From Saprospiraceae bacterium (lineage in GTDB: Bacteria; Bacteroidota; Bacteroidia; Chitinophagales; Saprospiraceae), in contig JANTGI010000013.1 in NCBI GenBank assembly GCA_024762995.1, positions 1-37,162 on the forward strand: DNA of 37,162 bases. Direction: 5' to 3'. A program made the translations under genes and the position numbers. Numbering within the stretch: position 1 is the first letter of the stretch; the number at the start of each line of letters is the position of its first letter. The notes beneath the pieces are model-generated. The model worked only from the letters and a program-made list of their open reading frames with translations. It was not told the origin of the DNA and searched no databases. Positions 3,497-29,966 of this stretch are shown here, piece by piece.

Positions 3497-4513
3497 CTAA
3501 GGCAGCGGCTTCACCCAACCCAACATCAACACCCAATAAAGAACAAAAAGACTCAGACCAACCAACAAAAAGGGGCGAAAACGCTCTATCTTGGTCATAT
3601 GTGTAATGACATCAATCTTAGAGCGTTCTAGCTGATTAATCTCTTTATAAATTTCTTTTAGCTCTTCTTTGGAACGTGCACGATAGTACTTTCCATGGGT
3701 ATAGTTAGCAATTTGCATCAAGAGACTTTCGTCAAAATCCGAAGGAACCGGCGCAAATAAGTAGTCGCCATTAAGCTTTTTACGGATAGGCATATTGACC
3801 ATCCCTTCCGTACCCATCCCAATCGTATAGACCTTGACCCCGAAGGTTTTGGCCAATTCTGCCGCTTCCATTGGATCAATGTCTCCCCTATTATTAGAGC
3901 CATCGGTCAATAAAACGACGATTTTACTTTTTGCCTTACTATCTTTAAGTTGATTGACCGAAGTGGCGAGTCCCATTCCGATAGCGGTGCCCATTTCAAG
4001 GTTCTTCGGGGACAACTCTTTAATCAACTTGGACAAGGTGCCGTAGTCCGTGGTCAGCGGACATTTGGTATAAGCTTCTCCCGAAAACACCGTCAAGCCT
4101 ATCTTATCCCCCTGCCTTTCTTTCACAAATTCTACCGCCAGTTCCTTAGCCACTTCCAAGCGATTAGGATCAAAATCCAAAGACAGCATACTCGGACTCA
4201 CATCCATGGCCAACATGATCTCTATACCTTCTCCTTTAAACTCTTGATGGTGCACAATTTCTTGGGGCTTCGCCATAGCCAACACTAAACTTATCAAACC
4301 CAAAAACGGCAACCAATTGGCATACCGATACGCCCATTTCTTTGGAGAAAGGCCCATTTTTACCTGACCGACTTCCGGTAATGCCAATCGCTCCCCTTGC
4401 CCTTTTGAACGACTATAACGCCAAAACAAAATGGCCAAAACAGGAATCAAAAACAACCAGTAAGGTTGCGTCCACTCCAGATTAGACCCTCCAAATACGA
4501 TTCCTAAAATCAT
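3497..4513 (-). CDS. batA: BatA-like von Willebrand factor A domain membrane protein
   Basis: This 338-residue inner-membrane protein has hydrophobic segments near residues 18-33 and 67-82, a vWA domain in the middle, and a C-terminal membrane helix near 315-333. The metal-ion-dependent adhesion site is intact: DVSPS at 104-108 and TDGSN at 203-207. BatA proteins belong to the Bat (Bacteroides aerotolerance) system and work with MoxR ATPases, probably in assembling or protecting envelope complexes. I chose the ATG at 4513 because it overlaps the preceding stop as ATGA, the pattern of this operon; a GTG at 4537 would add only eight unlikely residues. It is the last gene of the operon here. batB, batC, batD and batE do not follow. 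Confidence 0.9.
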   Translation of the reverse strand: MILGIVFGGSNLEWTQPYWLFLIPVLAILFWRYSRSKGQGERLALPEVGQVKMGLSPKKWAYRYANWLPFLGLISLVLAMAKPQEIVHHQEFKGEGIEIMLAMDVSPSMLSLDFDPNRLEVAKELAVEFVKERQGDKIGLTVFSGEAYTKCPLTTDYGTLSKLIKELSPKNLEMGTAIGMGLATSVNQLKDSKAKSKIVVLLTDGSNNRGDIDPMEAAELAKTFGVKVYTIGMGTEGMVNMPIRKKLNGDYLFAPVPSDFDESLLMQIANYTHGKYYRARSKEELKEIYKEINQLERSKIDVITHMTKIERFRPFLLVGLSLFVLYWVLMLGWVKPLP

Positions 4514-5430
4514 TCGGTTACATTCCTTTTTACCCACTGAATAGCTTCCAAAATGCTCTGCTCTTGCCGTTCATTAGGCATGGTCATTTTGGCAAATTTT
4601 ACCAAATCCGAGTCGTTTAACAGCCTGATTAACTGCGCTTTCTGACTAGGACTAATTCGTTTTAAGTCTCTTTCAATCTCTTGCGTGGACTCCTCTAAGG
4701 CATGTATGCGATGCGCTCGTTCCAAGTATCTTCTCAATATTTGCGAAAGCTTGACTTGTGTTTCTTTTGGCGCAGACTCCCATAAGCGTTGTTTTTGCAA
4801 TGCTTCCAGGCTTTCGACCGCTTCTTGGAGTGGCGGTTTCACCGGAATTTTCGGTTTTTGGGGGGCCATCTCCTTCGGCTTACGATTGCGCAAAAACAAA
4901 AACAGCAAAATACCCAAAAGCACTGCCAAAGCCCCTGCGATCCACGCATAATAATCACTTAGTTTTTTGGGCTCTTTGATGATGGTACGCAAGCCTTGCG
5001 GCAAATCTGTCACTTTCACAATGGGCTTCACAAACACCCGCACCGGATTGGAAGAAAAAACATAGGTCGTATCCGGCATCGGTGCTTCATAGATTACAGG
5101 TGGTAGGTCTATCCAACCGGAATCCAAAAACACCATCGCATCCATATCCTCTACCAAAATTTGCTTCTTTCCGTCTTCGGAAGACTCCTTTGTCACATTT
5201 GGTCTCCCTTGATATTCCAAATATTCATTTTGGGGCAACCCGTTAAGTCCCGGCCCGGTTATCTTCAGATGGCGGTCATATTCTACCCGAGCTTGAAGAT
5301 GAATCATATCTCCGATAATCACCGTATCCCTATCCACTTTCAAAGAGACTTGTGCTTGTTCAGCTTGCGCAAAAAGCAAGACCGGAGTCAGCAAAAATAA
5401 AATGACAAATTTGAAATTCATCCTGCTCAT
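4510..5430 (-). CDS. BatD/DUF4381-like membrane-anchored protein of the Bat operon
   Basis: This 306-residue protein has a signal peptide (hydrophobic core, cleavage near LLFAQA), a periplasmic beta-rich domain (about 25-155), one membrane helix near 160-182 and a charged helical cytoplasmic tail. The layout matches the DUF4381/BatD-like proteins that sit between DUF58 and BatA genes in Bacteroidota. The periplasmic part (SLKVDRDTVIIGDMIHLQ) resembles the repeated beta-sandwich opening of BatD. The start at 5430 overlaps the DUF58 stop as ATGA, and its own stop overlaps the batA start the same way, implying translational coupling. A second ATG at 5421 would give a more usual signal peptide and cannot be excluded. 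Its likely role is a structural partner of BatA; the precise function is unknown. Confidence 0.75.
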   Translation of the reverse strand: MSRMNFKFVILFLLTPVLLFAQAEQAQVSLKVDRDTVIIGDMIHLQARVEYDRHLKITGPGLNGLPQNEYLEYQGRPNVTKESSEDGKKQILVEDMDAMVFLDSGWIDLPPVIYEAPMPDTTYVFSSNPVRVFVKPIVKVTDLPQGLRTIIKEPKKLSDYYAWIAGALAVLLGILLFLFLRNRKPKEMAPQKPKIPVKPPLQEAVESLEALQKQRLWESAPKETQVKLSQILRRYLERAHRIHALEESTQEIERDLKRISPSQKAQLIRLLNDSDLVKFAKMTMPNERQEQSILEAIQWVKRNVTE

Positions 5431-6323
5431 CTTCCCAAATTTGAATTTCTTTTATTAAAAAATGCCAACATTGATTTATGAACAGATTCATCTGTTTTGA
5501 TGGTCAGATTGCTGGCCCGAGCACGAATAAAAGCATCTTCAAAAAAGGCCGTTTGATTCCGATAATAATTTAATAATACTTGTCGATCATCCGACCCAAA
5601 ATCAACCAAAACATCTTGCCCACTTTCCGGATCAACAGTTTTCACCAAGCCCGTCGTCGGAAGATGATCATAAAACTGATCCCAAATTCTAATCCCAATC
5701 ACCTCATGCTTTTGCGCAAGCAAAGACAGCTCCTTGGTATAACCGGTATCCAAAAAATCCGAAATAACAAAAATCAAATGATGTTTTTTTAGCACTCTTC
5801 TCAAAAACTTGAGCGACGCACCGATATTCGTCCGGGTGTCCTTGGCTTCTAACAAAACCAAGTCTCTCAAAATCTTTAGCAACTGTGCCTTACCCTTCTT
5901 CGGCGGCACAAATGACTCATTATCAGCAGAAAACAGCATCAAACCCACCTTATCTCCATTCCGCTCAGCCGTCACAGACAAGGATGCGCACAATTCGGTA
6001 ATCTGCCTGGAAATGGTTTTTCCATGCGCCCCAAACAAGGTGGATTGACTAATATCCACTGCCAGCAAAACTGACAACTCCCGCTCTTCTTCAAATATTT
6101 TGATGTGTGGAGAGCCGGTCTTGGCGGTTACATTCCAATCAATACTCCGGATGTCATCCCCATATTGATAAGGACGCACTTCACTAAAAGTGATGCCCAT
6201 TCCTTTAAAATTACTATGGTAGCCTCCCGAAAACATATCCTTTGTTTTCTGCCTAGTTTTAATTTCTAGCAGTCGAACTTGACGGAGCAATTCCGCCGGA
6301 GTTATATTTTCACGTTTGGCCAT
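5427..6323 (-). CDS. DUF58 domain protein (vWA-like) of the MoxR/Bat operon
   Basis: This 298-residue soluble protein contains the DUF58 signature RPYQYGDDIRSIDWNVTAKT at about 50-69, followed by a vWA-like fold with a MIDAS motif DISQS at 90-94. A second acidic strand appears in VISDFLD. DUF58 proteins are regularly encoded next to MoxR ATPases and are thought to be their substrate adaptors or clients. The length and motif order are normal. Its ATG overlaps the preceding stop codon by one base (TAATG), and its stop overlaps the next gene by four, so expression is tightly coupled. No membrane segment is seen, so a cytoplasmic location is expected. Confidence 0.9.
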   Translation of the reverse strand: MAKRENITPAELLRQVRLLEIKTRQKTKDMFSGGYHSNFKGMGITFSEVRPYQYGDDIRSIDWNVTAKTGSPHIKIFEEERELSVLLAVDISQSTLFGAHGKTISRQITELCASLSVTAERNGDKVGLMLFSADNESFVPPKKGKAQLLKILRDLVLLEAKDTRTNIGASLKFLRRVLKKHHLIFVISDFLDTGYTKELSLLAQKHEVIGIRIWDQFYDHLPTTGLVKTVDPESGQDVLVDFGSDDRQVLLNYYRNQTAFFEDAFIRARASNLTIKTDESVHKSMLAFFNKRNSNLGR

Positions 6324-7750
6324 TAATGCAATTTACGGAAGTGTTTGACGATTTTTTTATTTTTAATATAACCCTTTAATTCAGGGTAAGAAAACAACAC
6401 ATGATACTGCCCGAATACAGGATGAAACGCACTGCTAAAAAGGACACCATCCGGCTGCAAAACGAAGTTCTCGAAAGCGTCCTGACCGGCCCAAGCTAAA
6501 AAATCCTTATTATTTTTCAACTGATGTTGACCGAGATTTTTGCGGGCACGATTCTGAACCATCCGCTTCAGTTGTACCTTATCTTCAAACAAATCATCAA
6601 AACTCAAAAACTTCTTTTTCTTGACATCAAAATTCAAGGACTTCACTGAATATTTATCTTTACCGGGATCGTAAAAAATCTGAAATCCGCTAAACACATA
6701 TTCGTCCCGACAATGCACATCCACATAGCTATAAGCCGCCGGCGCATTCAAAATAGATGAATATTTTTTGACCGAAAGGGACTTTTGTTTCTTACAATAT
6801 TTAACCCAATCCGCCGCTTGCTCTTCCATCACATCATCAAAGGCTTGGATATTTAATTTTGGATAAATAATACTGTATCGAAAGTCTTTTGAAATCTCCG
6901 AAAAACAACTCTGCCCATCCGAAACCATCGGCATCGTATGTATTATTTGGTCGGAAGACCCGGTCTGAAAATGCCCTTCCAATTCTCCGTCTTGCCCAAG
7001 CTCTCCATAAATATCTCCAATTCTTCGCCCGTCATTTCCTATGACCACTAAATCCACCTTACTCCCGACCATCATACCTGTCAAGAGAGCAGTCATCTTC
7101 CTTTCGGCAAAATATATCGTCCCCTGCAAATCCCCATTTCCGATGCGCTGCAAATACAGATAGACATTCTCCCCATCGACCAAATGCCCTTGATGATACA
7201 CCAACCATTTGTCCACAAAACAAGCCGGCGGAACCACGGGCACGTCTTGGGTATAACGCCCATTCACCGTCGATACTTTTTGCTCCAAAGCACTCAACAA
7301 CTCACCCCTAAATTCTTGATTATCAATAGAATAACTCATCTTTCCTTGATCAACACCTTGCTCATCACGCAAATACAAAATAGAAGAAGTCCCACTCATC
7401 AACAAGGCTTCTTTTCCATTCGGGAAAAACAAAACACCCTTCATCGAGCCACCATTTTCTTTAAGCACAACCACCCCACCTTCCATCTCATCAATTCGGG
7501 TTGCATAGGTTTTGACTTTTAGGCTATTGGCTCTTTCCCCCAAGTGTTTGAGACACACTTTGTCTAGGGCTACGGTTTGAGCCTGCCCCATATTCCAAGA
7601 AAAAATAAAAAATAGGAAAACTGTTATACGCCAATTTAGGAAGCAAGTATCCGGCCCTTTAGCTTTCGCCAAAAGCACTTTATTGGCTATTGCCAAAGCC
7701 CCACTCTCCTTTACACTGCCGGCCCTAAAATTGAGTATTTTCTTTAACAT
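6323..7750 (-). CDS. Secreted protein with C-terminal DUF3298/RsiV-like domain, inside the Bat operon
   Basis: This is 475 residues from the ATG at 7750, which overlaps the MoxR stop as TGATG (a TTG at 7753 is one codon upstream and less likely). The N-terminus is odd: about 36 polar residues precede the hydrophobic core (TVFLFFIFSWNMGQAQ, about 43-58), so the signal peptide has an unusually long n-region, or the protein is anchored with a cytoplasmic tail. The middle (60-280) contains beta-rich segments that I do not recognise. The last 170 residues, with FDDLFEDKVQLKRMV and the closing FSYPELKGYI, resemble DUF3298/RsiV-type domains known from anti-sigma and peptidoglycan-related proteins; this is a motif-level impression. 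A gene of this kind between moxR and DUF58 is not part of the usual bat order. Confidence 0.6.
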   Translation of the reverse strand: MLKKILNFRAGSVKESGALAIANKVLLAKAKGPDTCFLNWRITVFLFFIFSWNMGQAQTVALDKVCLKHLGERANSLKVKTYATRIDEMEGGVVVLKENGGSMKGVLFFPNGKEALLMSGTSSILYLRDEQGVDQGKMSYSIDNQEFRGELLSALEQKVSTVNGRYTQDVPVVPPACFVDKWLVYHQGHLVDGENVYLYLQRIGNGDLQGTIYFAERKMTALLTGMMVGSKVDLVVIGNDGRRIGDIYGELGQDGELEGHFQTGSSDQIIHTMPMVSDGQSCFSEISKDFRYSIIYPKLNIQAFDDVMEEQAADWVKYCKKQKSLSVKKYSSILNAPAAYSYVDVHCRDEYVFSGFQIFYDPGKDKYSVKSLNFDVKKKKFLSFDDLFEDKVQLKRMVQNRARKNLGQHQLKNNKDFLAWAGQDAFENFVLQPDGVLFSSAFHPVFGQYHVLFSYPELKGYIKNKKIVKHFRKLH

Positions 7751-8751
7751 CAAGGCACCATTATTTTGTCCAAAATCTTATTGACAATATCGTCCTTGGT
7801 GACCAATTCTGCTTCGGCTTCAAACGTAGTCCCAATCCGATGACGCATAATATCCGGTGCAATATTTCTCACATCTTCCGGAATCACAAAGCCGCGTCGA
7901 TTCAAAAAAGCCACAGCTTTAGCCGCAATCGCCATACTGATACTCGCTCTCGGCGAAGCACCATAGCTAATAAAAGGAGCCAATTCCCCTAATCTCGCCG
8001 ACTTCGGATCTCTAGAAGCCTTCACAATATCCAGGATATAATTTTCGATTTGCTCATCAAGATAGACTTTTCGGACCAGCTTGCGCAATTTCAAAATATC
8101 CTCGATTGATGCGACAGGTTTAACTTTTGGGAAACCATTTTCCGAAAGGCTCCGACGCATAATTTCTTGCTCATCTTCCCGACTTGGATAATCTATCGTC
8201 AAATGCAACATAAAACGATCCTTCTGTGCTTCCGGCAACGGATAAGTACCTTCTTGGTCAATAGGGTTTTGTGTGGCCATCACCAAAAACGGCTCTTCCA
8301 GCTTAAAGGTCTGTCCCCCTATGGTCACCTGACGCTCCTGCATGGCTTCCAAAAGGGCACTTTGCACCTTGGCCGGCGCTCTATTTATTTCGTCCGCAAG
8401 GACAAAATTGGCAAATATCGGCCCCTTGCTGATTTCAAAAGTTCGCTCACCGGGATTGTAAATCATTGTCCCCGTCACATCCGACGGCAACAAGTCCGGT
8501 GTAAATTGAATTCTTTGAAACTTCGCATGAATCACCCTAGATAAGGTGCTGACTGCCAAGGTTTTAGCCAACCCGGGCAAACCTTCCAGCAGGATATGAC
8601 CTTTCGTCAAAAGCCCAATGAGTAGGCGTTCCATCATTTTTTCTTGGCCGACAATCACCTTTCGAGTTTCGGCATTGATGGCATCAATGTAGTGATATTC
8701 TCGTGTTATTTCTTCGTTGAGCTCATTGATTTGCTCGTAGGATGTGGACAT
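7750..8751 (-). CDS. moxR: MoxR-family AAA+ ATPase
   Basis: This 333-residue cytoplasmic ATPase has Walker A GLPGLAKT at 57-64, Walker B VLADE at 117-121, sensor 1 in ATQNP (159-163), and a sensor 2 region YGASPRAS near the C-terminal lid domain. The spacing and length are those of MoxR/RavA-type AAA+ chaperones, which act with vWA-domain proteins; the DUF58 and BatA proteins encoded downstream are the obvious partners. It is the first gene of a five-gene minus-strand operon whose members overlap by one or four bases. The ATG at 8751 is preceded by a 266-base divergent spacer shared with the plus-strand secreted propeller gene. Confidence 0.95.
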   Translation of the reverse strand: MSTSYEQINELNEEITREYHYIDAINAETRKVIVGQEKMMERLLIGLLTKGHILLEGLPGLAKTLAVSTLSRVIHAKFQRIQFTPDLLPSDVTGTMIYNPGERTFEISKGPIFANFVLADEINRAPAKVQSALLEAMQERQVTIGGQTFKLEEPFLVMATQNPIDQEGTYPLPEAQKDRFMLHLTIDYPSREDEQEIMRRSLSENGFPKVKPVASIEDILKLRKLVRKVYLDEQIENYILDIVKASRDPKSARLGELAPFISYGASPRASISMAIAAKAVAFLNRRGFVIPEDVRNIAPDIMRHRIGTTFEAEAELVTKDDIVNKILDKIMVP

Positions 8752-11792: not shown

Positions 11793-11840
11793 ATGAATTT
11801 GGGGAAAATAATCTCGTCTATTTATTGAAGTTTGTTCTGA

Positions 11841-11956
11841 TTGTGCCCAAGATTGATTTCCCCTGCCCTATTTTTCATTGACAGCACAAAGTAAAATACC
11901 TATCTTACCAAGACCTTTTTTCCATCTCAGGAAGGTCTAAAAAAAAGATCTTCTCC
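11841..11956 (+). pseudogene. Degraded 5' remnant of the downstream regulator, out of frame by one base
   Basis: The frame starting at 11841 stays open to an A7 run at 11940-11946 and reads SYQDLFSISGRS just before it. This aligns with SGLFVLSRDL in the intact paralogue (protein 32178-34979, around residues 182-191). Adding one A to the run would join this frame to the ORF that starts at 11957. Upstream stops at 11826 and 11838 end the remnant. So the gene at 11957 appears to be the 3' part of a longer gene broken by a one-base deletion and a further 5' loss. A sequencing error could explain the A-run but not the missing upstream 150 residues. Confidence 0.5.
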
Positions 11957-14206
11957 ATGCCACAATCCGCCGAGATTTCATCTATAGTCTCTTTGAAAAA
12001 GGATAAAAACTTAATTACAACGCTAAACAATGGTTTTTTTATCCAATCAGGAGACCATATTCAGCCATGGATTACCGAAGATGACCATTTCTTTCAAAAA
12101 AACGGGGTTTTCACCGCTAAGCTTTTATCAGATGGCAATATTGCTGTTGGCACATCGCTCGCCGGATTTGTGGTATTGTCCCCTTCCGGAAAAATATTAC
12201 TACACATTCAACGAAATAATGGCCTATTGAATAATACCGTCCTGAGTATTCTCGAAGACAACAACCAAAATATATGGCTTGGTCTGGATAATGGCATTAG
12301 CCACATTGAATACAACTCTCCTTTCAGTCGATTTTTTCCTGATGCCAACATTGAGTCCACAGGCTATGCGACCATCATCAAGGACGATTATATCTACTTC
12401 GGTACATCCACCGGTGTTTACTCTTTACCCAAGAACGCAAAAACAACTGAGCAACAAGTATTTAAAAAGATACAAGGCTCCGATGGACAAGTCAGAAACT
12501 TCAATATCATCAACAATACCCTCGTAGTAAGCCACCATAAACGTCCACTAAAAATAATAAATGGAATGGCTTACCCTATTTCTTTGGAAAATGGATATTG
12601 GTTATTTCAGCGACTAAAACAAGACACCAATTTTGTCATTGCCGGCACCTACCATGGTCTTAGCTTATTCGACAAAAATCTAAATTTTTTACACAAAATA
12701 AAAGGGTTTGATGAATCTAGTCGATTTTTGGAACAAGACAAACAGGGCAACATCTGGGTCGCACATCCCAATAAAGGTATTTTCAAATTAACACTGAACA
12801 ACACCAAAAACCAAGTAAAAGTCACCAAATATGGCCAAAAAGACGGCTTACCGTCTAACTTACTCAATCATGTTTTTTCTATCAGCAATGAATTACTCTT
12901 CCCAACTATTAATGGCATCTATTCTTACGACCCAAAAACCAATCATTTCACCCCAAACCAAGAGTATAACCGCTTGCTTTCCAATCAACGCCGCATTAGA
13001 CGCCTAACAAAAGCCGATTCCGGTGATATATGGTACATCAGCTCCACCGAAATCGGAAAGCTAATGGTCCAAGAAAAAAGTATTTCGAAAAAAATCGACA
13101 TCTTACAATTCCCGCAAATCTCCGACCAATTAGTCGATGGTTTTGAATGCATTTATCCTATTGGAGACGATGCCATCCTGCCGGCAGAACAGGGTTTTAT
13201 CTATTATGACAGCCGGAAAAAATGGACTAATCAGCCCAGTTTTGGGCTTGTTTTTTCTGACATCTCCCTAACCAATCATGGTGACAGCACCATTTTTTAT
13301 GGTAATTATTCGGATGGAAAACAAGTTTTTTGGGAGCAGCCTGATTCTGCTATTTTGAGATTTCCCTTTCGGGAAAATGGCATTCAATTCAATTTTTCTA
13401 CCACCAAATTCATTCGCCCGGAAAAAATAAAATATCGTTACAAATTAGAAGGATTAGACAGCAAATGGTCCATTTGGGCAACCAAATCCGAAAAAGAATA
13501 CAACAACCTAAAAGGGGGAAAATATGTATTTTCTGTACAAGCAATGGATGAGTTTGGCACTCCCACCCAACCAATTACCTATCAATTTAGAATCAGACCT
13601 GCATGGTATGCTTCCACACTTGCCTACATCTTGTATTTCTTGTCCTTTGTGGGATTATTAGCTTTGGTTTACCGCATTTACATCAAAAAATATGACCAAC
13701 AAAAAGAAATCGTCCAAAGATCCGAAAAGATTATCGACCAACTAAAACATGAAAAACTAGAAGCAGACATTCGACACAAAAACAGAGAGTTAATCTCCAC
13801 CACCCTTCATCTTGCCCACAAAAATGAAGTATTTAAGCGAGTAAAATCAGACATCGACAAGCTAGCCAAGACATGCACTGATTTAGACACCAAAGCCAAC
13901 CTAAAAGCCATTATCAAAATTCTCTCTACAGAAGAAGATGCCGAAGCAGGTTGGGAAGAGTTTGTCGCCCATTTTAACAAACTACACACCGGCTTCTTCG
14001 ATAAGTTAAAATCTAACTATCCCGAGCTTTCGCCAAAAGATTTGAAAATGTGTGCCTACCTAAGAATGAACCTTTCCACCAAAGAAATATCTACACTATC
14101 GAATATTACGACTCGTGGTGTCGAAGGGGCTAGATACCGCTTACGCAAAAAATTTGGGTTAAGTGGAGAGGATAACTTGGTTGCCTTTTTGATGGATATA
14201 CCGTAG
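11957..14206 (+). CDS. N-terminally truncated propeller/Y_Y_Y/LuxR-type regulator (probable pseudogene)
   Basis: The 749-residue ORF is a paralogue of the regulator at 32178-34979. Its first residue corresponds to about residue 199 there. Shared landmarks include LLNNTVLSILEDNNQNIWLG against LSNNTVLHLYEDKTGLLWAG. It keeps two-component-regulator propeller repeats, a Y_Y_Y domain (about 470-545), one membrane helix (551-573), a coiled segment and a LuxR-like helix-turn-helix (688-746, with YLRMNLSTKEIS and RYRLRKKFGL). It lacks a signal peptide and the first propeller blades, so the sensor half could not reach the periplasm normally. An in-frame stop at 11939-11941 precedes the start. The long intact remainder suggests recent loss, or use as a cytoplasm-facing fragment. 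Confidence 0.75.
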   Translation: MPQSAEISSIVSLKKDKNLITTLNNGFFIQSGDHIQPWITEDDHFFQKNGVFTAKLLSDGNIAVGTSLAGFVVLSPSGKILLHIQRNNGLLNNTVLSILEDNNQNIWLGLDNGISHIEYNSPFSRFFPDANIESTGYATIIKDDYIYFGTSTGVYSLPKNAKTTEQQVFKKIQGSDGQVRNFNIINNTLVVSHHKRPLKIINGMAYPISLENGYWLFQRLKQDTNFVIAGTYHGLSLFDKNLNFLHKIKGFDESSRFLEQDKQGNIWVAHPNKGIFKLTLNNTKNQVKVTKYGQKDGLPSNLLNHVFSISNELLFPTINGIYSYDPKTNHFTPNQEYNRLLSNQRRIRRLTKADSGDIWYISSTEIGKLMVQEKSISKKIDILQFPQISDQLVDGFECIYPIGDDAILPAEQGFIYYDSRKKWTNQPSFGLVFSDISLTNHGDSTIFYGNYSDGKQVFWEQPDSAILRFPFRENGIQFNFSTTKFIRPEKIKYRYKLEGLDSKWSIWATKSEKEYNNLKGGKYVFSVQAMDEFGTPTQPITYQFRIRPAWYASTLAYILYFLSFVGLLALVYRIYIKKYDQQKEIVQRSEKIIDQLKHEKLEADIRHKNRELISTTLHLAHKNEVFKRVKSDIDKLAKTCTDLDTKANLKAIIKILSTEEDAEAGWEEFVAHFNKLHTGFFDKLKSNYPELSPKDLKMCAYLRMNLSTKEISTLSNITTRGVEGARYRLRKKFGLSGEDNLVAFLMDIP

Positions 14207-14225
14207 AATGGCACAAACTTTTGAA

Positions 14226-14275
14226 TCTATTGTTGATAGCGCAACAAGGAAAAGAAAAAATAATTTATTCGTCAT
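14226..14275 (-). pseudogene. Relic of the 5' end of a GH3 gene
   Basis: Read on the minus strand from the ATG at 14275-14273, the sequence gives MTNKLFFLFLVALSTI, clearly related to MKNKLIFLFVLSII at the start of the intact GH3 gene (25732). Homology stops near 14226, so only about 17 codons survive. The stop codon of the overlapping upstream relic lies ten bases inside, exactly as in the intact pair. Confidence 0.75.
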
Positions 14276-14348
14276 GGTTACGCTTGTTTTTGTTTTCATT
14301 GGGTATGAAGGCTGCCTTGTTAGTGAGTCCTTGATTTAAGGATTTTTT
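14265..14348 (-). pseudogene. Relic of the 3' end of a GH144-like glucanase gene
   Basis: On the minus strand, 14348 down to the stop at 14267-14265 encodes KKSLNQGLTNKAAF followed by IPNENKNKRNHDE and a stop. The intact lipoprotein glucanase (25722-27101) ends KKNKYLQDGLKKAGF, LPTKNKNKLDHEE and a stop. Similarity is also visible at DNA level. Upstream of this segment the frame meets TGA and homology fades. This is a remnant, not a gene. Confidence 0.75.
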
Positions 14349-14546
14349 CGTTCTTCGTCAATTATAGCGAGTTTTCAAATCTAATTAACCTAAGTAAAAC
14401 AAATCATCACGGTAAAATTTATAACTTTGGAATCATCAACTCCCAATACATATTCGGATTCGATTCAAAAACCAAAACCTAACTCATTCCTTGAATTCCG
14501 GACAATCGCATCTAATTAATTAACCCACCCTCCCAAAAACGAAAAG
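14349..14546. other. Gene-free spacer
   Basis: No coding frame, strong hairpin or repeat was recognised between the glucanase relic and the GH20 stop codon. The first bases, to about 14366, may be further degraded relic sequence. Confidence 0.4.
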
Positions 14547-16421
14547 TCATCTTTTCTTTTTCACCCGCTCAACCAACACCTCCCTATCCACAATAATCTC
14601 TCGTCCCAAAGCTTGGCCGTCTCTATAACTTTGTGTCCTTAATTTTAAATTACCTTCCGGAATTAGAAAAGGATTCTTGTACTTATGGCCAAATTTTGGC
14701 GGATAAGTATTATCAATTGTATAAAATATTTCGGCATTTGGAATAGCACATTTTAGCGCACACATCAACGAATCATCTTCTTTATAGACCCGTATAATTG
14801 GCTCGTAAACAGCTTTACAAATATTAGTATTTGCCTGATCAAACAATCGAAAATGATACTCCACCCGTCTAATAAAGTTGTTCCATTTTTTATTTTCCAA
14901 AGGACTCCATAATGACTCTGACAAGGCAAAGGCTCTTGGATAGGTCATATAAAAAGCAAAGGGCAAGGTCGCTACTTTCTCCGTCCACAAATTACCTTGA
15001 CCACCCATAACATACTCACTATCAATACTATCCGGTGCCGGATTAAATTCGTATACCTTCTCCAAACTCAAACTGGCATAGACGCTATTCTCCACACTTT
15101 TATCTCCTTGAGTATAATCCAAATAGGCATAAGTCGTAGGCGACATCACCACTTGGCGCTTTTGACGCACCGCCTTCATGCCCCCTTTCATCCCACGCCA
15201 ACTCATAATTGCCGCATCATCGGACAAGCCTTCTGCCAATATTTCATCCCAACCAATCATCTTTTTTCCCTTACTGCTTATGATTTTAGCCACACGATTC
15301 ACAAAGTAATTTTGCAACTCGTCGGTATTCTTAATATTATTCAAACTCATGAATTTTTGAACCTGCGGATCTGCTTCCCAGTAGCCATGATAGCATTCAT
15401 CTCCACCGGCATGGATATACTCCCCGGGGAATAGCTCTGCCACTTCCGTAAAAATTTTATCGACAAATTCATAGGTCTTTTCATCAGCAGGATTGAGCAT
15501 ATTTTCAATAAGCATCTTAAATTTTCCATTCCCGTACCATTCTGAAAAGCGTGTGCCGGGGTTGACAAATTTTGGTTCTTTCTTAGTAGAAAACTCCGGA
15601 TAGGCCGCTAATGCTGCCATACTATGCCCCGGCATATCAATCTCGGGCACAATCGTTATATTTCGATCCGCCGCATATTGTATGACGTCTCTAATTTGCT
15701 CCTGCGTATAAAACCCACCATCCGTTGCTTTTTCATTTGGTTTTGGATCTGGGCCACCGAAGAATCCATATCGTTTGACTCGCCAAGCGCCGATTTCGGT
15801 TAATTTCGGAAGAGATTTTATTTCAATTCTCCAACCATGATCATCTGTCAAATGCCAGTGAAACACATTGAACTTATAGGTAGCCATTTGATTGATATAG
15901 GCTTTCACTTCATCAACTGTAAAGAAATGCCTACTAACATCTAACATCAAACCCCGCCATTTAAACCTTGGGTAATCTAGAATAGTGCCACCCGAAATTT
16001 TTATTAAACCGTCTTCTCTTGGTGCCGCCATTAACTGCTTTAATGTCTGAAAAGCATAAAAAATACCCGCAGGTTCATTGGCCGTAACTAAAATTTCTTT
16101 TTCATGAATGGCTATTTGATACCCTTCTTTCCCAATTTTTCCGAAAGGACTTACATTCAACTTAATCCGAACGACTTTTTCAAAATCAGCTTGGGCAGTA
16201 GGTGTCAATCCAAACATCCCTACATTATGGTAAAAATCTTGTATGTACTTATCAATCAATGGATTACGAGTCTCATTCAACACTGTGATATTATTCTCAA
16301 GGGCAAAGATTTCATGACTTAGAACATAACTAACCGGCACCGGAATAATCGGTTGTTGAGCATAATCTTGGCAAATCAAAATAAAAGAAATGACAAACAC
16401 TAAAAAAATATTCTTTTTCAT
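14547..16421 (-). CDS. GH20 beta-N-acetylhexosaminidase
   Basis: This 624-residue exported enzyme removes terminal beta-linked GlcNAc/GalNAc from glycans such as chitooligosaccharides. It has a signal peptide (MKKNIFLVFVISFILICQ), a GH20b N-terminal domain to about 145, then the catalytic barrel with the family landmarks RGLMLDVSRHF (156-166), FHWHLTDDHGW (187-197) and the catalytic Asp-Glu pair D341-E342 in HAGGDECYHGYW. Glu of the pair is the acid/base and Asp stabilises the substrate-assisted oxazoline intermediate. A C-terminal beta-sandwich (about 555-615, IFYTIDNTYPP) is typical of family members. The signal peptide lacks a clear lipobox. It starts 30 bases after the SDR stop on the same strand, so it may be the last gene of a TetR-SDR-GH20 transcript. 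Confidence 0.93.
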   Translation of the reverse strand: MKKNIFLVFVISFILICQDYAQQPIIPVPVSYVLSHEIFALENNITVLNETRNPLIDKYIQDFYHNVGMFGLTPTAQADFEKVVRIKLNVSPFGKIGKEGYQIAIHEKEILVTANEPAGIFYAFQTLKQLMAAPREDGLIKISGGTILDYPRFKWRGLMLDVSRHFFTVDEVKAYINQMATYKFNVFHWHLTDDHGWRIEIKSLPKLTEIGAWRVKRYGFFGGPDPKPNEKATDGGFYTQEQIRDVIQYAADRNITIVPEIDMPGHSMAALAAYPEFSTKKEPKFVNPGTRFSEWYGNGKFKMLIENMLNPADEKTYEFVDKIFTEVAELFPGEYIHAGGDECYHGYWEADPQVQKFMSLNNIKNTDELQNYFVNRVAKIISSKGKKMIGWDEILAEGLSDDAAIMSWRGMKGGMKAVRQKRQVVMSPTTYAYLDYTQGDKSVENSVYASLSLEKVYEFNPAPDSIDSEYVMGGQGNLWTEKVATLPFAFYMTYPRAFALSESLWSPLENKKWNNFIRRVEYHFRLFDQANTNICKAVYEPIIRVYKEDDSLMCALKCAIPNAEIFYTIDNTYPPKFGHKYKNPFLIPEGNLKLRTQSYRDGQALGREIIVDREVLVERVKKKR

Positions 16422-18154: not shown

Positions 18155-18874
18155 TCAGGGCGTAGCCAAACTCTCCAGTCGGGTCGCCCTCACTCGCTCA
18201 ACAAGCAAACGATGCCCCAAGTCATTCATATGAATACCATCACCCGAGTCAAACTCGGATCGGATAAATCCATTTTCCATAGCAAATCCATGCCAAAAAT
18301 CTATCACCGAATCCCCATAACGATGCTCTATGGAATCTAATAATTCAAATTGCAAATTAACTTGGGAGCGTTTAGAAAAATTTCTTGGTTGAGGCGTACA
18401 AATCCATGTTTTTACTCCTTGCGTGGCAGCATTTTTAATAATGGTATCAAAATTAGTCAATTGAATACTGACGGGAAAGTTATGCGCGGCATCATTGGAG
18501 GGCATATTGATAATAATCGCATAAGGATGGTAAGTCAACGCCTTGGTTACATTTCTACTCGAATCTATACGTATATCCAATCCGGCTGGAACAGACATCC
18601 CCGTCGGCAAAATTTGATAAGTCGTATATCCTCCCTTGGCCAGATTGATTAAGGCAAGTTTTGACGTCTTGTTTAGATACTTTTGGTATCTTTTCACCCA
18701 CGAACTATCTGGGGTTGACACACCCCATCCGGCCGCAGTCGAAGAGCCTAATACGACAATGGGACCGGTTTGACCAACATCCATAGCCTGCTCCTTCCTA
18801 ATCGTTGATAATGACTGGCAGGACAAACCCGTCAATAGTATTATTATCAAGATAAAATTAAAATTAAATTTCAC
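18155..18874 (-). CDS. SGNH/GDSL-type hydrolase lipoprotein
   Basis: This is 239 residues from the GTG at 18874, which gives a classic lipoprotein signal with lipobox LTGLSC (Cys19). A TTG at 18907 would prepend 11 residues and is less likely. SGNH blocks are present: Ser45 in VLGSSTAAGWG, Gly82 in LAKGGYTT, Asn127 in NMPSNDA, and D212xxH215 in DGIHMN. These form the Ser-His-Asp esterase machinery with its oxyanion residues. It is 81 bases downstream of susD on the same strand and is the last PUL gene, suggesting a carbohydrate esterase that strips acyl groups from imported or surface-bound oligosaccharides. The substrate is inferred from context only. Confidence 0.85.
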   Translation of the reverse strand: MKFNFNFILIIILLTGLSCQSLSTIRKEQAMDVGQTGPIVVLGSSTAAGWGVSTPDSSWVKRYQKYLNKTSKLALINLAKGGYTTYQILPTGMSVPAGLDIRIDSSRNVTKALTYHPYAIIINMPSNDAAHNFPVSIQLTNFDTIIKNAATQGVKTWICTPQPRNFSKRSQVNLQFELLDSIEHRYGDSVIDFWHGFAMENGFIRSEFDSGDGIHMNDLGHRLLVERVRATRLESLATP

Positions 18875-18955
18875 AATATTTTTTTTAATATCAACAACCA
18901 GGGTCAAGAACCCTAAAACATGTCTAAGAATTTAGAAAACCAAAAAAATCCACCA

Positions 18956-20431
18956 TCAATACCCCATATTCTGAGTCATCACCCCACCTAACAAATCAAT
19001 TTCTGACTGCGGAATTGGTAATAGTTCATGTTTGTTTTCTACAAAATCTTTTCCGAGTGCTTGGAGCGTTGTCGCTGCTCTTTTTTGACGAACTAAGTCA
19101 AACCAACGATGTTGCTCCATCCCTAACTCCGCTCTTCGTTCATGCCAAATTTTTTGACGCAAGACATCTTTGTCAGTCGTGGTGATTTCCGGAAGGATAA
19201 AATTATTTCCTTGGCGAGCACGTGCTCTTACTACTTCTAGAAGTACCAAAGCGTCATTAGGTTTATTATTTTCATTCATGGCTTCCGCAGCTATCAACAA
19301 GATATCGGCATAACGCAAAATACGAATATTACCGGGGCCGTTGCCATTGCCACCGGGGTGATTGGCCACCCATGCTTTTTGATTATATCGCTCATTAAAA
19401 ATATTGGGATTGTCTTCCACCACCGTCGAACCATCCGGCAAGGTCTCTCCCACATATAAAATAGTCGCATCCCGTCGCGGGTCACCCGGCTCAAAAGAAG
19501 TGACAAAATCATCCGATGGGCGATTGAATCCCCATCCAAGATTAGGGGTGCCCCTAACTCCCTGAACTTCATTGTATTGTGAGCCAAAATTACCTTCTTC
19601 GTATGAGGCAGCTTGTACTTCAAAAATAGATTCATTACTATTTTCTCCTTCTTGCTGAAACAGTTTTGTGTAATTAGGATACAGGCCATATTCTTGCGAA
19701 TCAATGACTTTTTGAGCATAGATTTCCGCTTGAGCAAAATCTTCCATAGTCAAATATACTTTCGCCAAAAGGCCGTTAGCTGCTCCTTTGGTGACACGTC
19801 CTAGGTCTGCCGGCGCATAAGCAGATTTTTCCGGAAGGACTTCGGCGGCTGCTTTTAAATCATTAATTATAAACTCATAAATCCGATCTTTCGACACACG
19901 GGGCTGCTCGTATTCATCTTGTGTCAAAATGTGATCCACCAAAGGCAAATCCCCAAACCATCGTACCAAATTAAAATAATAATAAGCGCGCAAAAAATGA
20001 GCTTCCGCCAAAAGACGCGCCTTCAATTCTTCATCCATGTCGATACCCGGCACATTATCTAATACCGAATTGGCCCGATAAATCCCATGATAATAACCCT
20101 TCCAAACAGATAGAAAAGCAATATTAGACGGATCAAAAGTAAAATCATCCAATTCTCTTAAAAAATTGGCATCATTGGGCAAACTCCCTTTGTCAGAATC
20201 ATCTGAAATAATGTCCGTCAATCCAATGTAACTAAAGACATGGACATCCCAGCTTCTTAATTGATTGTAAATCGCATTGGTCGCCCAAACAGCGTGTTGC
20301 TCCGTCTTGTAAAAATTGTCGGTCGAAAGCTGCCCCTTTGGTTTTTTATCAAAAAAAGATTCCTTTACACAACCCGATAAAAAGAAAAGGGCCAATGTAA
20401 GCATGATGAGTTGAGTTGAATTATTTTTCAT
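18956..20431 (-). CDS. susD: SusD/RagB family outer-membrane glycan-binding lipoprotein
   Basis: This 491-residue lipoprotein has a lipobox FLSGC at Cys21, followed by the usual FDKKPKGQLS segment. The fold signature includes tetratricopeptide-like helices (ARLLAEAHFLRAYYYFNLVR at about 132-151) and the conserved C-terminal half with ILRYADILLIAAEA and HERRAELGMEQHRWFDLVR-type text. SusD proteins cap the SusC transporter and capture oligosaccharides. It lies 44 bases after susC on the same strand, as expected for a cognate pair. Length is normal. The ligand is not predictable from this sequence; PUL context suggests a glucan. Confidence 0.95.
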   Translation of the reverse strand: MKNNSTQLIMLTLALFFLSGCVKESFFDKKPKGQLSTDNFYKTEQHAVWATNAIYNQLRSWDVHVFSYIGLTDIISDDSDKGSLPNDANFLRELDDFTFDPSNIAFLSVWKGYYHGIYRANSVLDNVPGIDMDEELKARLLAEAHFLRAYYYFNLVRWFGDLPLVDHILTQDEYEQPRVSKDRIYEFIINDLKAAAEVLPEKSAYAPADLGRVTKGAANGLLAKVYLTMEDFAQAEIYAQKVIDSQEYGLYPNYTKLFQQEGENSNESIFEVQAASYEEGNFGSQYNEVQGVRGTPNLGWGFNRPSDDFVTSFEPGDPRRDATILYVGETLPDGSTVVEDNPNIFNERYNQKAWVANHPGGNGNGPGNIRILRYADILLIAAEAMNENNKPNDALVLLEVVRARARQGNNFILPEITTTDKDVLRQKIWHERRAELGMEQHRWFDLVRQKRAATTLQALGKDFVENKHELLPIPQSEIDLLGGVMTQNMGY

Positions 20432-20475
20432 TTTTTTTTATTTTTCAGGTCGATAGAAAAAATGGATTCCTAATA

Positions 20476-23454
20476 TTAAAAATTAGTAGTCAAGCCAAAT
20501 GTGACCGTTTTTGCCGGCGGGAATATCCCCCGATCCACTCCATTATTCAAAGGTTGTTCGGAGGCAATCTCCGGTGAATAACCACTATAAGATGAATTAT
20601 TCCATAAATCCGTCCCACTTACATAAAACCTAACTGAAGTAAATTTCCATTTTTGCGTAAGCGATGCCGGTAGAGTATAACCGAATTGAACACTTCTTAA
20701 TTTTAAATAGGAACCATCTTCCAACATCCAGTCAGAAACTAAATAATTGTGTCCACCATTGGTCACGCGCGGCTCAGTGGTGCTCGTCCCTTCACCGGTC
20801 CAACGGTCTAAATAAGACGATTCAAAATTATAGGTACCGAAGCGGGCAACCTTCTTGGCATTGGCCACTTTATTGCCAGTCTGCCCCGTAAAATCAATGC
20901 CTACATCAAAACCTAAATAGGAAGCACCCAAATTAAAACCATATATCAAAGTTGGTATGGAACTACCCAGATAGACACGATCTTCTTCTGAAGTAATCTT
21001 CCCATCCCCATTTTGATCAACAAATCTCAAATCACCGGGTTGCTCATCTCCGATGGTCGCCCCTTGGTCAATTTCAGCTTGATTTTGAAAAATACCATTG
21101 GTCTCATAGCCGTAAAAAGCACCAATCGGATGACCGGGAACTGTATATGTAATTCGCTTACCGCCAACACCTAAGTCACCACCTTCTAAAAAATCACGTC
21201 CTTGTCCCAACGACAATACTTCATTATGTACGGTCGTAAATTGCGCACCGAGAGAGTAGGAAAATTTTCCGGCTTGTCGCCAGTTAATACTTGCTTCAAT
21301 TCCACGATTGAGAATATCCGCCGCATTCTGAAAAGGCGGATTAGCCGCCCCCACCAAATCCGGAATATTTGGACGCAACAAGATGCCTGTTGTGACCTTT
21401 CGGTAATAATCAAACTCCGCCGTAAGTTGGTTTTTTAAGAAGGAAATTTCCATTCCGATATTGGTTTGCTTGGACTCTTCCCATTTCAAATCATCATTCG
21501 ACAAATTAATGGGCGCATAGCCGTAATGTATGGTTTCGTTGACGCCAAAGATGGCATCTAAGCCACCGGATACGATGGCGACACTTGGGTAAGAACTAAT
21601 TTTTTCACTTCCCGTAACGCCCCAACCGGCTCTAAACTTCAACCTGGAAATAATATTATTTTTGACCAAAAATGGCTCTTGTGAAGCGACCCAACCTAGT
21701 GAAAAAGATGGGAATTGGGCATAGCGATTATTTTTACCAAATTTTGAAGAGCCGTCAACACGATAGCTAACTGTCGCCAAATACTTACTCTGATAACTGT
21801 ATTGAGTCCTAAATAAATAGGAAAAAATGGACCAATCATCAGCGCTATTATAATTGGTCTGAAAATCAGCCGGCCCTGCATCTAAATAATAAAATTCTTC
21901 CGTCTCTCCCAGCACATTCTTCCGAGTACCACCAAACCATTCGCTGTCATTGGTCTGGGCCACCACACCTCCCAATATGGTCAAGTCATGGTCTCCCATC
22001 TTCTTACTAAAAGTCAATAAATTATCAAACACTTTATTTTGATTTTTATTCGTATTGACGGAGATGGAGTTTTCTTGATTTTGCGAACTTGGAGACACAA
22101 AGAAAACAGGAACAAAAACCTTTCCTTCGCCATATGCCATATTCAAGCCCAGACTACTTTTAAAGGTGAAGTATTTTAAAAAATTGACCTGTGCATAAAC
22201 ATTACCATTCAGCTGATTTGATTTATTAAAATTATGATTAAACTCAAATTGAGCGGCGGGATTTCCGACAGGTGAAGTATCCCAAAAATGACCGGTTGAA
22301 TCTCTTGGAGCAAAAATAGGATAAACCCGATAGGCATTCATCAACACACCGGGCGCATTGACAGAATGGGTATTGATAAAAGACAGGTTGTGTCCAAATT
22401 TCACTTGTTTCGTTAAATGATATTCATTATTCATCCGAAAAGTAATCCGATTAAAATCTGATTGCTTAATGATTCCTTCTTGCGAAAAATAATTACCACT
22501 TAAATTAAATGTCATTTTTTCTCCCCCACCGGAAGCACTCAAGTTGGCATTAAAAATCGGTGCCGTTTGGAAAATATAATCCTGCCAATCAAATCCTTCC
22601 CCATACTGCTCGACATCACTGTAAAGGGGCGAACGATTTTCGTTGACCGCAGCTTCATTGGCCAAAGTCGCAAATTCAGTTCCATTCGCCAAATCAATTT
22701 TCTTGACCACTTTTTGTGTGCCATAATAGGTCGAAAAACCAAAAGTAGTCTTCTGGTCTAATTGTCCTTTTTTGGTGGTGACAATGATGACTCCATTAGC
22801 ACCGCGCGACCCGTAAATCGCTGTGGCAGAAGCATCTTTGAGCACGTCAATCGCTTCTATATCATTGGTACTCAAGTGGTTAATACTTTCCATAATGACT
22901 CCATCGACTACATAAATCGGACGAGCATCCCCAAAAGTACCTACCCCACGAATCCGAATAACCGGACTACTACCCGGCTGACCTGACGGTGCAGATACTT
23001 GCACGCCCGTCACCTTCCCCTGCAAAGCTTGCTCGACATTGGAAGTAGGAATTTTGGCAATTTCCTTGGACTCCACGTGAGAAACAGCACCGGTCACATC
23101 ACTTTTCTTTTGAACACCATATCCCACGACAACCACATCTGTTAGCACTTGGGCATCAATATCCAAGGTCACATCAATCACTGCCCGCCCATCAATAGGC
23201 AGGATTTCTTCTTTAAATCCAACATAGGATATTACCAAGCTGTCCTTTGGGGATTGGACAGATAATTCATACTTCCCATCATAGTCGGTGGTTGTCCCTG
23301 TTGATGTATTCTTAATCATCACAACTGCACCGATGGCAGGCAAACCATCCGGTTCATAAATTGTACCTGACACTTTGGCTTGCGCAAAAAGAAAAGAAAT
23401 AGGCAACATGCTAAAGAGTAGCAGCTGAGTAAATTTGTGGCTTAATATTTTCAT
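20476..23454 (-). CDS. susC: SusC/RagA family TonB-dependent outer-membrane transporter
   Basis: This 992-residue TonB-dependent transporter has a signal peptide (to about 25, LLFSMLPISFLFAQA), a carboxypeptidase-D regulatory-like domain (about 28-105, VSGTIYEPDGLPAIGAVV), a TonB-box-like VVVVGYG, and a plug with the family motifs ALQGKVTGVQV, YVVDGV and IYGSRGANGVI (about 115-225). A 22-strand barrel ends in TVTFGLTTNF with a C-terminal Phe. A calcium-loop-like segment (DQNGDGKITSEED) lies in the barrel, as in many SusC proteins. It imports oligosaccharides with SusD. It lies 49 bases after the GH3 gene, so SusC/SusD sit downstream of the enzymes rather than at the head of the operon. No strong TAnnTTTG box was found in that gap. 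Confidence 0.96.
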   Translation of the reverse strand: MKILSHKFTQLLLFSMLPISFLFAQAKVSGTIYEPDGLPAIGAVVMIKNTSTGTTTDYDGKYELSVQSPKDSLVISYVGFKEEILPIDGRAVIDVTLDIDAQVLTDVVVVGYGVQKKSDVTGAVSHVESKEIAKIPTSNVEQALQGKVTGVQVSAPSGQPGSSPVIRIRGVGTFGDARPIYVVDGVIMESINHLSTNDIEAIDVLKDASATAIYGSRGANGVIIVTTKKGQLDQKTTFGFSTYYGTQKVVKKIDLANGTEFATLANEAAVNENRSPLYSDVEQYGEGFDWQDYIFQTAPIFNANLSASGGGEKMTFNLSGNYFSQEGIIKQSDFNRITFRMNNEYHLTKQVKFGHNLSFINTHSVNAPGVLMNAYRVYPIFAPRDSTGHFWDTSPVGNPAAQFEFNHNFNKSNQLNGNVYAQVNFLKYFTFKSSLGLNMAYGEGKVFVPVFFVSPSSQNQENSISVNTNKNQNKVFDNLLTFSKKMGDHDLTILGGVVAQTNDSEWFGGTRKNVLGETEEFYYLDAGPADFQTNYNSADDWSIFSYLFRTQYSYQSKYLATVSYRVDGSSKFGKNNRYAQFPSFSLGWVASQEPFLVKNNIISRLKFRAGWGVTGSEKISSYPSVAIVSGGLDAIFGVNETIHYGYAPINLSNDDLKWEESKQTNIGMEISFLKNQLTAEFDYYRKVTTGILLRPNIPDLVGAANPPFQNAADILNRGIEASINWRQAGKFSYSLGAQFTTVHNEVLSLGQGRDFLEGGDLGVGGKRITYTVPGHPIGAFYGYETNGIFQNQAEIDQGATIGDEQPGDLRFVDQNGDGKITSEEDRVYLGSSIPTLIYGFNLGASYLGFDVGIDFTGQTGNKVANAKKVARFGTYNFESSYLDRWTGEGTSTTEPRVTNGGHNYLVSDWMLEDGSYLKLRSVQFGYTLPASLTQKWKFTSVRFYVSGTDLWNNSSYSGYSPEIASEQPLNNGVDRGIFPPAKTVTFGLTTNF

Positions 23455-23503
23455 TTTTTTTTGTTTTTGTCAGTTAAAACATAGGACAACACAAAAGATA
23501 AAA

Positions 23504-25732
23504 TTAAAAATAGGTGATTGTAACTTTATCCTTTGCTGATGAGTTGGTGCCTACATAAATATCAAATTTTCCAGGCTCAATCGTCCACTTCATATTTTTA
23601 TCATAAAACATAAAGTCCTCTTTGGTTAGTGTAAAAGTAACCGTTTTATACGCTCCTTTTTTAATCTTGACTTGTTGAAAACCTTTTAATTCTTTCACAG
23701 GACGAGTCACACTTCCGACTAAATCATGAATATATAATTGGACGGTTTCCGTTCCGTCATAATCTCCTGTATTTTTAATAATAACTGATATATTAATGGA
23801 GTCGGATTGGGTAAATCGGCGTTTATCCGTGGTGATTTTGCCGTAATCAAAACTCGTATAACTCAATCCATAACCAAATGGATACAGTGGAGTGTTCGGT
23901 ACATCCAAATACTTGCTGGTATATTTGTTTTTGGCATCAAAAGGCCTTCCCGTATGCTTCGCATTGTAAAATATAGGTACTTGACCGACATTTCTGGGAA
24001 AGGTGACCGGCAATTTCCCGGAAGGGTTATACTTACCTAAGAGCACATCCGCCATCGCATGACCGGCTTCTGTGCCTAAAAACCAAGTTTCCACAATGGC
24101 GTCCGCATTTTCAGCAATCCACGGAATGGCCAAGGGCCGCCCATTGGATAAAACGACAATCATCGGCTTGCCCGTTTTTTTGCACATTTTGGCTAATTCC
24201 AATTGATGTCCCGGCAAGCCGATATTAGAACGCGATGCCGCTTCTCCACTCATACCCCTATTCTCACCCAAAGATAAAATAATATAGTCTGCGTCATTAG
24301 CCATTTTTTTAGCTTCCGCAAAACCGGATTGGTCGCCATCATAGATATTGCATCCTTTTGCAAAAGAAAAAATTAAATCGGAACCTGCTTCCTGCAAGCC
24401 TTTTTTTAAAGTAACACAATCTTCCGCATGACCGGACGCACTCCAAGAGCCAAGCATATCTTTTTGACTATCGGCTAAAGGGCCGATGACTGCCACTTTC
24501 TTTTTGGACTTTTGCGGAAGCGGGAGAATTCCTTTTTTATTTTTTAATAATACAATGGATTTTTGCGCAAGCCGGCGGGCAAATTTTCGATGTGCTTCCG
24601 CAAAAACCAATTCTTTTTCTCTTGTTACATTACTGTACTTGTAAGGATCATCAAAAAGACCCAATTCATATTTCATCATCAGCACATTACGAGCCGCTTG
24701 GTTGATTTCTTGAATCGTTACCTTGCCTTCAGCTAAGGATTTTTTAAGGTATTTGTAATAGACAGCTCCTTGCATGTCCATATCGACACCAGATTTTAGT
24801 GCAAGCTCGCCGGCTTCTTTTTCATTCGCAACATTACCATGTTCGACCATTTCGTTGATGGATGTGTAATCGGTGACCACCATTCCGTCGAATTTCCATT
24901 CATCTCGTAAGATGTCTTTAAGTAAGTATTTATTGCCCGTTGCCGGAATGCCATTTAACTCATTGAAAGAAGTCATAAAGGTTCGAACGCCTGCATCAAT
25001 CGCCGCTTTGAAGGGCGGCAAGTAAATCTCTCTCAACGTTCGATCTGATATATCCACCGTATTATAATCTCTCCCTGCTTGAGCGGCACCATAAGCGGCA
25101 AAGTGTTTGGCGCAAGCTAATATCGTATTATTATCTGTCAAATTTGCCCCTTGAAAACCTTTGACTCTAGCCCCGGCTACGGCATTACCCAAGTAAGTAT
25201 CTTCTCCTGCTCCTTCCGAAATTCGCCCCCATCTCGGGTCGCGGGCGATGTCCACCATTGGTGCGAAAGTCCAGTGCAAACCGGCTGCTGAAGCTTCGAT
25301 GGCTCCAATACGGGCGGCTTGTTGTATCGCTGCCAAATCCCAAGAAGCCGCTTCACCCAAAGAGATTGGAAAGATAGTTCTATACCCATGAATGACATCG
25401 TATCCAAATAAAAGGGGGATGCCCAATCGAGTTTCTTCGACCGCCATTTTTTGCAAGGAACGGGTATAAGCCGCTGTATGCGCATTAAAGATAGCGCCAA
25501 CTTTTCCTGCACGTATGTCCGCCTTATAGGTATCGCGCATAGTTGGGCCGGTGGATTCCCAGTCGCTAGTAAATAAAGTCATCTGTCCTATCTTCTCTTC
25601 TGTAGTCATCAGCGCAAGAAGCGAATCCACGGGATGTATATTTTTAATAGTAATAGCCGATTTTGTGGTTTTTTGTGCGGTAGTACACCCAATTATTGAT
25701 AGCACAAAAAGGAAAATTAATTTATTCTTCAT
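23504..25732 (-). CDS. GH3 beta-glucosidase (BglX-like) lipoprotein
   Basis: This is 742 residues from the ATG at 25732; a TTG two codons upstream is not needed. The signal has a lipobox LSIIGC (Cys16). The (beta/alpha)8 domain contains LHWTFAPMVDIARDPRWGR and the nucleophile motif GMVVTDY with Asp288. It is followed by the alpha/beta sandwich and a C-terminal FN3-like domain, the full BglX layout. Expected role: exo-acting hydrolysis of beta-glucosides or beta-glucooligosaccharides in the periplasm. Its start lies inside the preceding glucanase gene (11-base overlap), so the two are coupled. A relic of the same junction exists at 14226-14348. With GH144-like neighbours, a sophorose-type beta-1,2-glucosidase is plausible but not proven. 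Confidence 0.92.
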   Translation of the reverse strand: MKNKLIFLFVLSIIGCTTAQKTTKSAITIKNIHPVDSLLALMTTEEKIGQMTLFTSDWESTGPTMRDTYKADIRAGKVGAIFNAHTAAYTRSLQKMAVEETRLGIPLLFGYDVIHGYRTIFPISLGEAASWDLAAIQQAARIGAIEASAAGLHWTFAPMVDIARDPRWGRISEGAGEDTYLGNAVAGARVKGFQGANLTDNNTILACAKHFAAYGAAQAGRDYNTVDISDRTLREIYLPPFKAAIDAGVRTFMTSFNELNGIPATGNKYLLKDILRDEWKFDGMVVTDYTSINEMVEHGNVANEKEAGELALKSGVDMDMQGAVYYKYLKKSLAEGKVTIQEINQAARNVLMMKYELGLFDDPYKYSNVTREKELVFAEAHRKFARRLAQKSIVLLKNKKGILPLPQKSKKKVAVIGPLADSQKDMLGSWSASGHAEDCVTLKKGLQEAGSDLIFSFAKGCNIYDGDQSGFAEAKKMANDADYIILSLGENRGMSGEAASRSNIGLPGHQLELAKMCKKTGKPMIVVLSNGRPLAIPWIAENADAIVETWFLGTEAGHAMADVLLGKYNPSGKLPVTFPRNVGQVPIFYNAKHTGRPFDAKNKYTSKYLDVPNTPLYPFGYGLSYTSFDYGKITTDKRRFTQSDSINISVIIKNTGDYDGTETVQLYIHDLVGSVTRPVKELKGFQQVKIKKGAYKTVTFTLTKEDFMFYDKNMKWTIEPGKFDIYVGTNSSAKDKVTITYF

Positions 25733-27101: not shown

Positions 27102-27170
27102 TTGATGATTTGGTTTTTCGAGAAAACTCTTAAGTAATTGATAATCAACAAAATGCGATTACACAAAGAA

Positions 27171-27200
27171 GCTCGGAGCATTAAACATAACACTCCGAGC
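27171..27200 (-). terminator. Intra-operon hairpin after the binding-protein gene
   Basis: A perfect 8-bp GC-rich stem (GCTCGGAG at 27171-27178 with CTCCGAGC at 27193-27200) starts 19 bases after the stop of the five-module protein. On the minus strand it is followed by TTCTTTGTGT, an imperfect T-tract. It could be a partial terminator or a transcript-stabilising hairpin that lets the upstream secreted proteins be made in excess of the downstream enzymes. Confidence 0.5.
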
Positions 27201-27218
27201 ATTCAAAACCCTTCAGTT

Positions 27219-29906: not shown

Positions 29907-29966
29907 GTTTAGGCGTTTTTGAAAAGGTTTGTGAAATTAAATTTTAATAGACTCTAAAGAGCCTGT

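Follow-up and report, generated by a model that had tools for sequence, protein, structure and literature searches.

Truncated and decayed gene copies arising from duplication, deletion and erosion have been surveyed in bacterial genomes (PMC522871), and on the enzyme side XcSGL has been described as a GH144 beta-1,2-glucanase (PMC12102758). We found no published report of GH144 in Saprospiraceae or of relics of PUL junctions. The relic analysed here resembles the surveyed pseudogene remnants in being truncated and decayed while the genome still carries the intact version, but it differs from them in being a gene-gene junction of about 95 bases, recognised by a stop/start overlap, instead of the remnant of one gene.

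The intact PUL and its relatives

The window, that is, the whole stretch of DNA analysed, comprises 37,162 bases and corresponds to an entire contig (C13) of a 3.68-Mb Saprospiraceae genome in 241 contigs. Its right-hand part is occupied by an intact PUL, in which the following features were identified by Pfam matches unless otherwise stated.

18155 to 34979, minus strand: intact PUL, with a core order common to many Saprospiraceae
18155 to 18907, minus strand: GDSL esterase
18956 to 20431, minus strand: SusD
20476 to 23454, minus strand: SusC
23504 to 25732, minus strand: intact GH3 (BglX-like beta-glucosidase; NCBIfam BglX also above its cut-off)
25722 to 27101, minus strand: intact GH144 of the endo-beta-1,2-glucanase type (PF10091)
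27219 to 29906, minus strand: PKD/CBM protein
29967 to 31805, minus strand: GH144b, a GH144 paralogue with a T9SS tail
32178 to 34979, minus strand: PUL regulator, propeller-type
35022 to 37097, minus strand: GH97, upstream of the PUL

The closest solved chain to the product of 25722 to 27101 was XcSGL (8xul, E 6.7e-133), while CpSGL (5gzh) matched with E 2.3e-49; judged by these similarities, the gene is related to characterised GH144 enzymes, and the cluster is a putative beta-1,2-glucan PUL. For the GH3 gene, the ATG at 25732 fits both the signal peptide and the overlap with GH144, and the mechanically called ORF starts two codons earlier, at TTG 25738. Past the GDSL esterase, reading from right to left, lie a TetR gene, an epimerase gene and a GH20 gene (14547 to 16421). 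Elsewhere in the window, a cluster of MoxR-type AAA ATPase and VWA-domain genes occupies 3497 to 8751, in which the proteins of 4510 to 5430 and 6323 to 7753 have no Pfam match, and self-comparison revealed self-complementary (palindromic) intergenic stretches at 267 to 298 and 1816 to 1859.

Like other Saprospiraceae GH144-GH3 PULs, the cluster contains a regulator, GH144b, a PKD/CBM protein, GH144, GH3, SusC and SusD, with variations between loci; because related loci show the same core order, it counts as a standard PUL of the family. It differs from them in one respect, in that the PTKNKNKLDHEE end of GH144 and its 11-base overlap with GH3 occur in this genome only. Among these loci, one MAG contig (JADLBE010000529.1) carries two inverted GH144 PUL copies (L079 and L081) about 52 kb apart and with equal query identities, which may be a genuine duplication or, alternatively, a palindrome produced by the assembly.

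A second copy of the GH144-GH3 junction

The strongest non-self match in a blastn self-comparison of the window joined 14229 to 14321 with 25692 to 25778, in the same orientation, with 76.3% identity over 93 columns (E=1.3e-12). The former segment is intergenic, between the GH20 gene (14547) and a convergent regulator-like gene (11957 to 14206), and the latter is the junction of the intact GH144 and GH3 genes. The features recognised at the intergenic site are as follows.

14227 to 14321, minus strand: scar, a second copy of the junction between the GH144 3' end and the GH3 5' end (blastn and shuffles)
14265 to 14321, minus strand: putative relic of a lost GH144 copy, namely its 19 terminal codons, stop included (NKAAFIPNENKNKRNHDE and stop), compared with 25722 to 25778
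14265 to 14275, minus strand: 11-base stop/start overlap, matching that of the intact pair (25722 to 25732) at 10 of 11 bases
14227 to 14275, minus strand: putative relic of the first 16 or so codons of a lost GH3 copy (signal peptide MTNKLFFLFLVALSTI), compared with 25692 to 25732
14322 to 14354, minus strand: possible further GH144 codons (RTKKSLNQGLT), a weak feature from blastx extension, not significant at the DNA level

The preliminary description, which had read this site as the relic of a second GH144-GH3 junction, had proposed, among its checks, a comparison of the alignment with shuffled sequence of the same composition. The scar aligned to the intact junction with a Smith-Waterman score of 81, while the scores of 1000 dinucleotide shuffles averaged 20.7 and did not exceed 37, and 60 shuffles searched against the rest of the window likewise peaked at 37 or below; chance similarity is thus ruled out. 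The reading as a junction relic is supported. Both reading frames on the minus strand were also found as originally given, namely KAAFIPNENKNKRNHDE and stop for the GH144 end and MTNKLFFLFL for the GH3 start. The overlap between them, first thought to be identical to that of the intact pair, is the same in length and register, but one of the 11 bases differs (ATGACGAATAA / ATGAAGAATAA). Similarly, of the roughly 120 aligned bases originally claimed (14226 to 14348), homology is secure over about 14227 to 14321, whereas past 14321 the DNA alignment gained nothing over shuffled sequence, 68 of 200 shuffles being equally good; blastx extension towards 14348 to 14354 brought a plausible protein match to 29 aa (48%). 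No additional GH144 or GH3 sequence was recognisable in 14355 to 14546. What is left, beyond any function, is thus 19 GH144 codons and about 16 GH3 codons, with nothing more recognisable outside approximately 14227 to 14354.

The differences between the two copies carry some record of their history. The GH144 relic shows 12 differences in 19 codons, distributed 3/3/6 over the codon positions, with no indel, and the GH3 relic shows two 3-base gaps that keep the frame. As the GH144 part lacks indels, the GH3 gaps come in threes and half of the GH144 differences fall in third positions, this small sample suggests that part of the divergence arose while the scar was still coding. Retention of 76% identity might also be expected if the junction copy had been kept for a function of its own, as a small RNA, a terminator or a regulatory site where the GH20 and regulator genes converge. 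We consider this highly unlikely: the window yielded no Rfam match and 14100 to 14700 no terminator-like site, so that a conserved RNA or terminator was rejected, no counterpart was found in the 60 relatives, and the similarity tracks the coding register of the two genes.

Comparison with Saprospiraceae and other Bacteroidota further defined the relationship between the two copies. The PTKNKNKLDHEE tail was found in none of about 50 distinct GH144 relatives, most of them with a readable stop, and the GH144-GH3 overlap was likewise absent from all of them and present only in this genome; instead, the relatives carry AGFxGGWL-like tails or terminate shortly past AGF. A degenerate pattern for the junction, allowing up to three mismatches, occurred exactly twice in the genome and in none of 60 relatives. 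The absence of the junction rests on this pattern search, given that the known scar went unreported when the genome was searched in DNA mode with the intact junction. Because no GH144 relative has the tail or the overlap, the scar and the intact junction have in common a derived state private to them and must be close copies of each other; generic conservation of GH144 ends was rejected as the source of their similarity, since the tails of relatives differ. A relative with an intact second copy, which the preliminary description had suggested looking for, did not turn up: neither the pattern nor the DNA search (a weak negative) detected a second junction at the same site in the 60 relatives, just four of which are same-genus genomes. 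This genome itself contains one close GH144 copy with the distant GH144b and one GH3 copy, and no second GH3 or second close GH144 was found in it. Among the four further genomes of the genus, GH3 was present in a single one (G004) and GH144 in none.

The headless regulator and its same-genus counterpart

The gene convergent to GH20 proved to be damaged as well, and a short decayed segment precedes it.

11957 to 14206, plus strand: headless PUL-type regulator (Reg_prop, Y_Y_Y), open over 749 codons (Pfam; orthologue in G004)
11828 to 11956, plus strand: decayed in-frame relic of the N-terminal side of the regulator, with a stop at 11879 to 11881

Compared with its full-length, 947-aa orthologue in G004, the regulator is without about 206 N-terminal residues (the N-terminal fifth). 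The segment at 11828 to 11956, located between a VPS10-like gene and the headless regulator, scored 32 in fixed register against residues 164 to 206 of the G004 regulator (1 of 20000 shuffles was as good), while as a free local alignment it was not significant. No good candidate for the missing head was found elsewhere in the genome, the best match being the N-terminus of the PUL regulator itself. A resemblance of minus-strand 14201 to 14239 (LSTIDSKVCAILR) to the regulator motif LSxKDLKMCAxLR was at chance level (E 1.2) and was discarded.

The identity of the regulator is 58-59% to the G004 regulator and 33-38% to regulators of other genera. The neighbour of the scar had been taken for a truncated paralogue of the PUL regulator; truncated, damaged and of PUL type it is, but it shares just 27% identity with the regulator at 32178 to 34979 and belongs to a different regulator group. 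With its closest relative elsewhere, in G004, we rejected a close paralogy to the PUL regulator. From this placement, 11957 to 14206 is a headless PUL-type regulator of the group linked to GH3 in this genus.

The locus in question (L151, 1 to 9935, on contig C155 of G004) is a GH3 locus without GH144, with a glucuronate isomerase-like gene, the full-length regulator, GH3, a GDSL/T9SS protein and SusC. The regulator is divergent to GH3, which is followed by the GDSL gene and then SusC. The G004 GH3 is 71% identical to the window GH3 and its sister in the tree (support 100/99), and the GDSL protein is 64% identical to its counterpart in the window. The two loci are therefore alike in the orthologous regulator and the sister GH3, but the G004 locus has no GH144 in front of GH3, its SusC is just 39% identical to that of the window, and its regulator and GH3 are divergent, whereas the window regulator and the GH3 relic are convergent. 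That the orthologue is intact and directly beside GH3 adds new support to the original reading of the site as a relic.

The G004 genes also provide a point of reference for the age of the second copy. Between the GH3 genes of the window and G004, 58% of third positions are different, as are 32% of positions overall; the scar has diverged from the intact junction by 24%, a value below this although signal peptides and tails evolve fast. Because the GH3 divergence from G004 exceeds that of the scar, the lineage had probably already separated from G004 when the duplication took place.

Origin and meaning of the scar

We consider it most probable (at roughly 77%) that deletions next to a decaying regulator reduced an additional GH144-GH3 segment, which probably belonged to a duplicated PUL, to its bare junction. 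The extra copy would have occupied the interval separating GH20 (14547) from the regulator-like gene (11957 to 14206). Its source would have been a duplication or the uptake of a very similar PUL, at a time when the private tail and overlap already existed. It would then have diverged from the intact pair with both frames kept, until deletion removed, on one side, GH3 from roughly its 16th codon onwards, as far as the sequence flanking the regulator at its 3' end, and, on the other, most of GH144; the adjoining regulator would also have lost its N-terminal fifth. On this reading, the region from 11.8 to 14.5 kb is what erosion has left of a set of PUL genes, and it has probably lost its function in the PUL.

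Some observations weigh against this reading or limit its reach. Secure homology covers only about 93 bases, too few to tell how large the lost copy was, and no relics of SusC, SusD or other PUL genes besides the regulator were found in the tested intergenic stretches or in the window self-comparison. While the preliminary description argued for a whole second, paralogous PUL at the site, a GH144-GH3 segment alone also fits; duplication of the whole PUL, control of that PUL by the regulator and the order of the deletions are all steps that we infer. The regulator turns its 5' end to GH3 in G004 but its 3' end to the GH3 relic in the window, and because of this difference in orientation a rearrangement is needed. 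In addition, the scar and the regulator relic need not share one age, as the 749-codon frame is open despite the 24% divergence of the scar. The assembly is in many fragments and possibly of metagenomic origin, and a chimera could in principle have joined the neighbourhood but not made a 76% copy.

Since both edges of the similarity lie inside genes and nothing is recognisable outside about 14227 to 14354, one might instead suppose that some 100-130 bases of the junction were copied alone, by a template switch or as filler DNA at a break, and then drifted, so that a second gene pair never existed. This origin seems rather improbable to us: that both frames survived 24% divergence without a frameshifting indel, albeit over a short stretch, suggests a coding past, and a broken PUL regulator with an orthologue beside GH3 would be an unlikely target for random filler.

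Another alternative is that the scar marks the original GH144-GH3 locus, native beside the regulator as in G004, and that the intact PUL is a newcomer that replaced it with a close PUL. Adjacency of the regulator orthologue to GH3 in G004 and the lack of both GH144 and GH3 in three of the four same-genus genomes agree with such a replacement, but the intact PUL has the conserved gene order of the family and its own regulator, its GH3 is sister to that of G004, as for a resident gene, and the tail common to scar and intact copy is private to the lineage. We therefore regard a replacement as quite unlikely. We hold it very unlikely, too, that the headless regulator continues to be produced and to control the surviving PUL, the locus having formerly held a second, diverged GH144-GH3 PUL with a different regulator; if so, the loss of that PUL would have left a rewired regulator.

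Under the preferred reading, deletion of an extra GH144-GH3 segment, the scar is a real and well preserved genomic fossil of an ordinary kind. It illustrates how much of a duplicated gene cluster can be lost with the rest still recognisable, the private overlap serving as a fingerprint, and it adds a case in which a PUL was duplicated and lost again in an environmental lineage of Bacteroidota. It is also a warning that a regulator beside a PUL can be the orphan of another, lost locus; apart from these points, it represents ordinary genome erosion.
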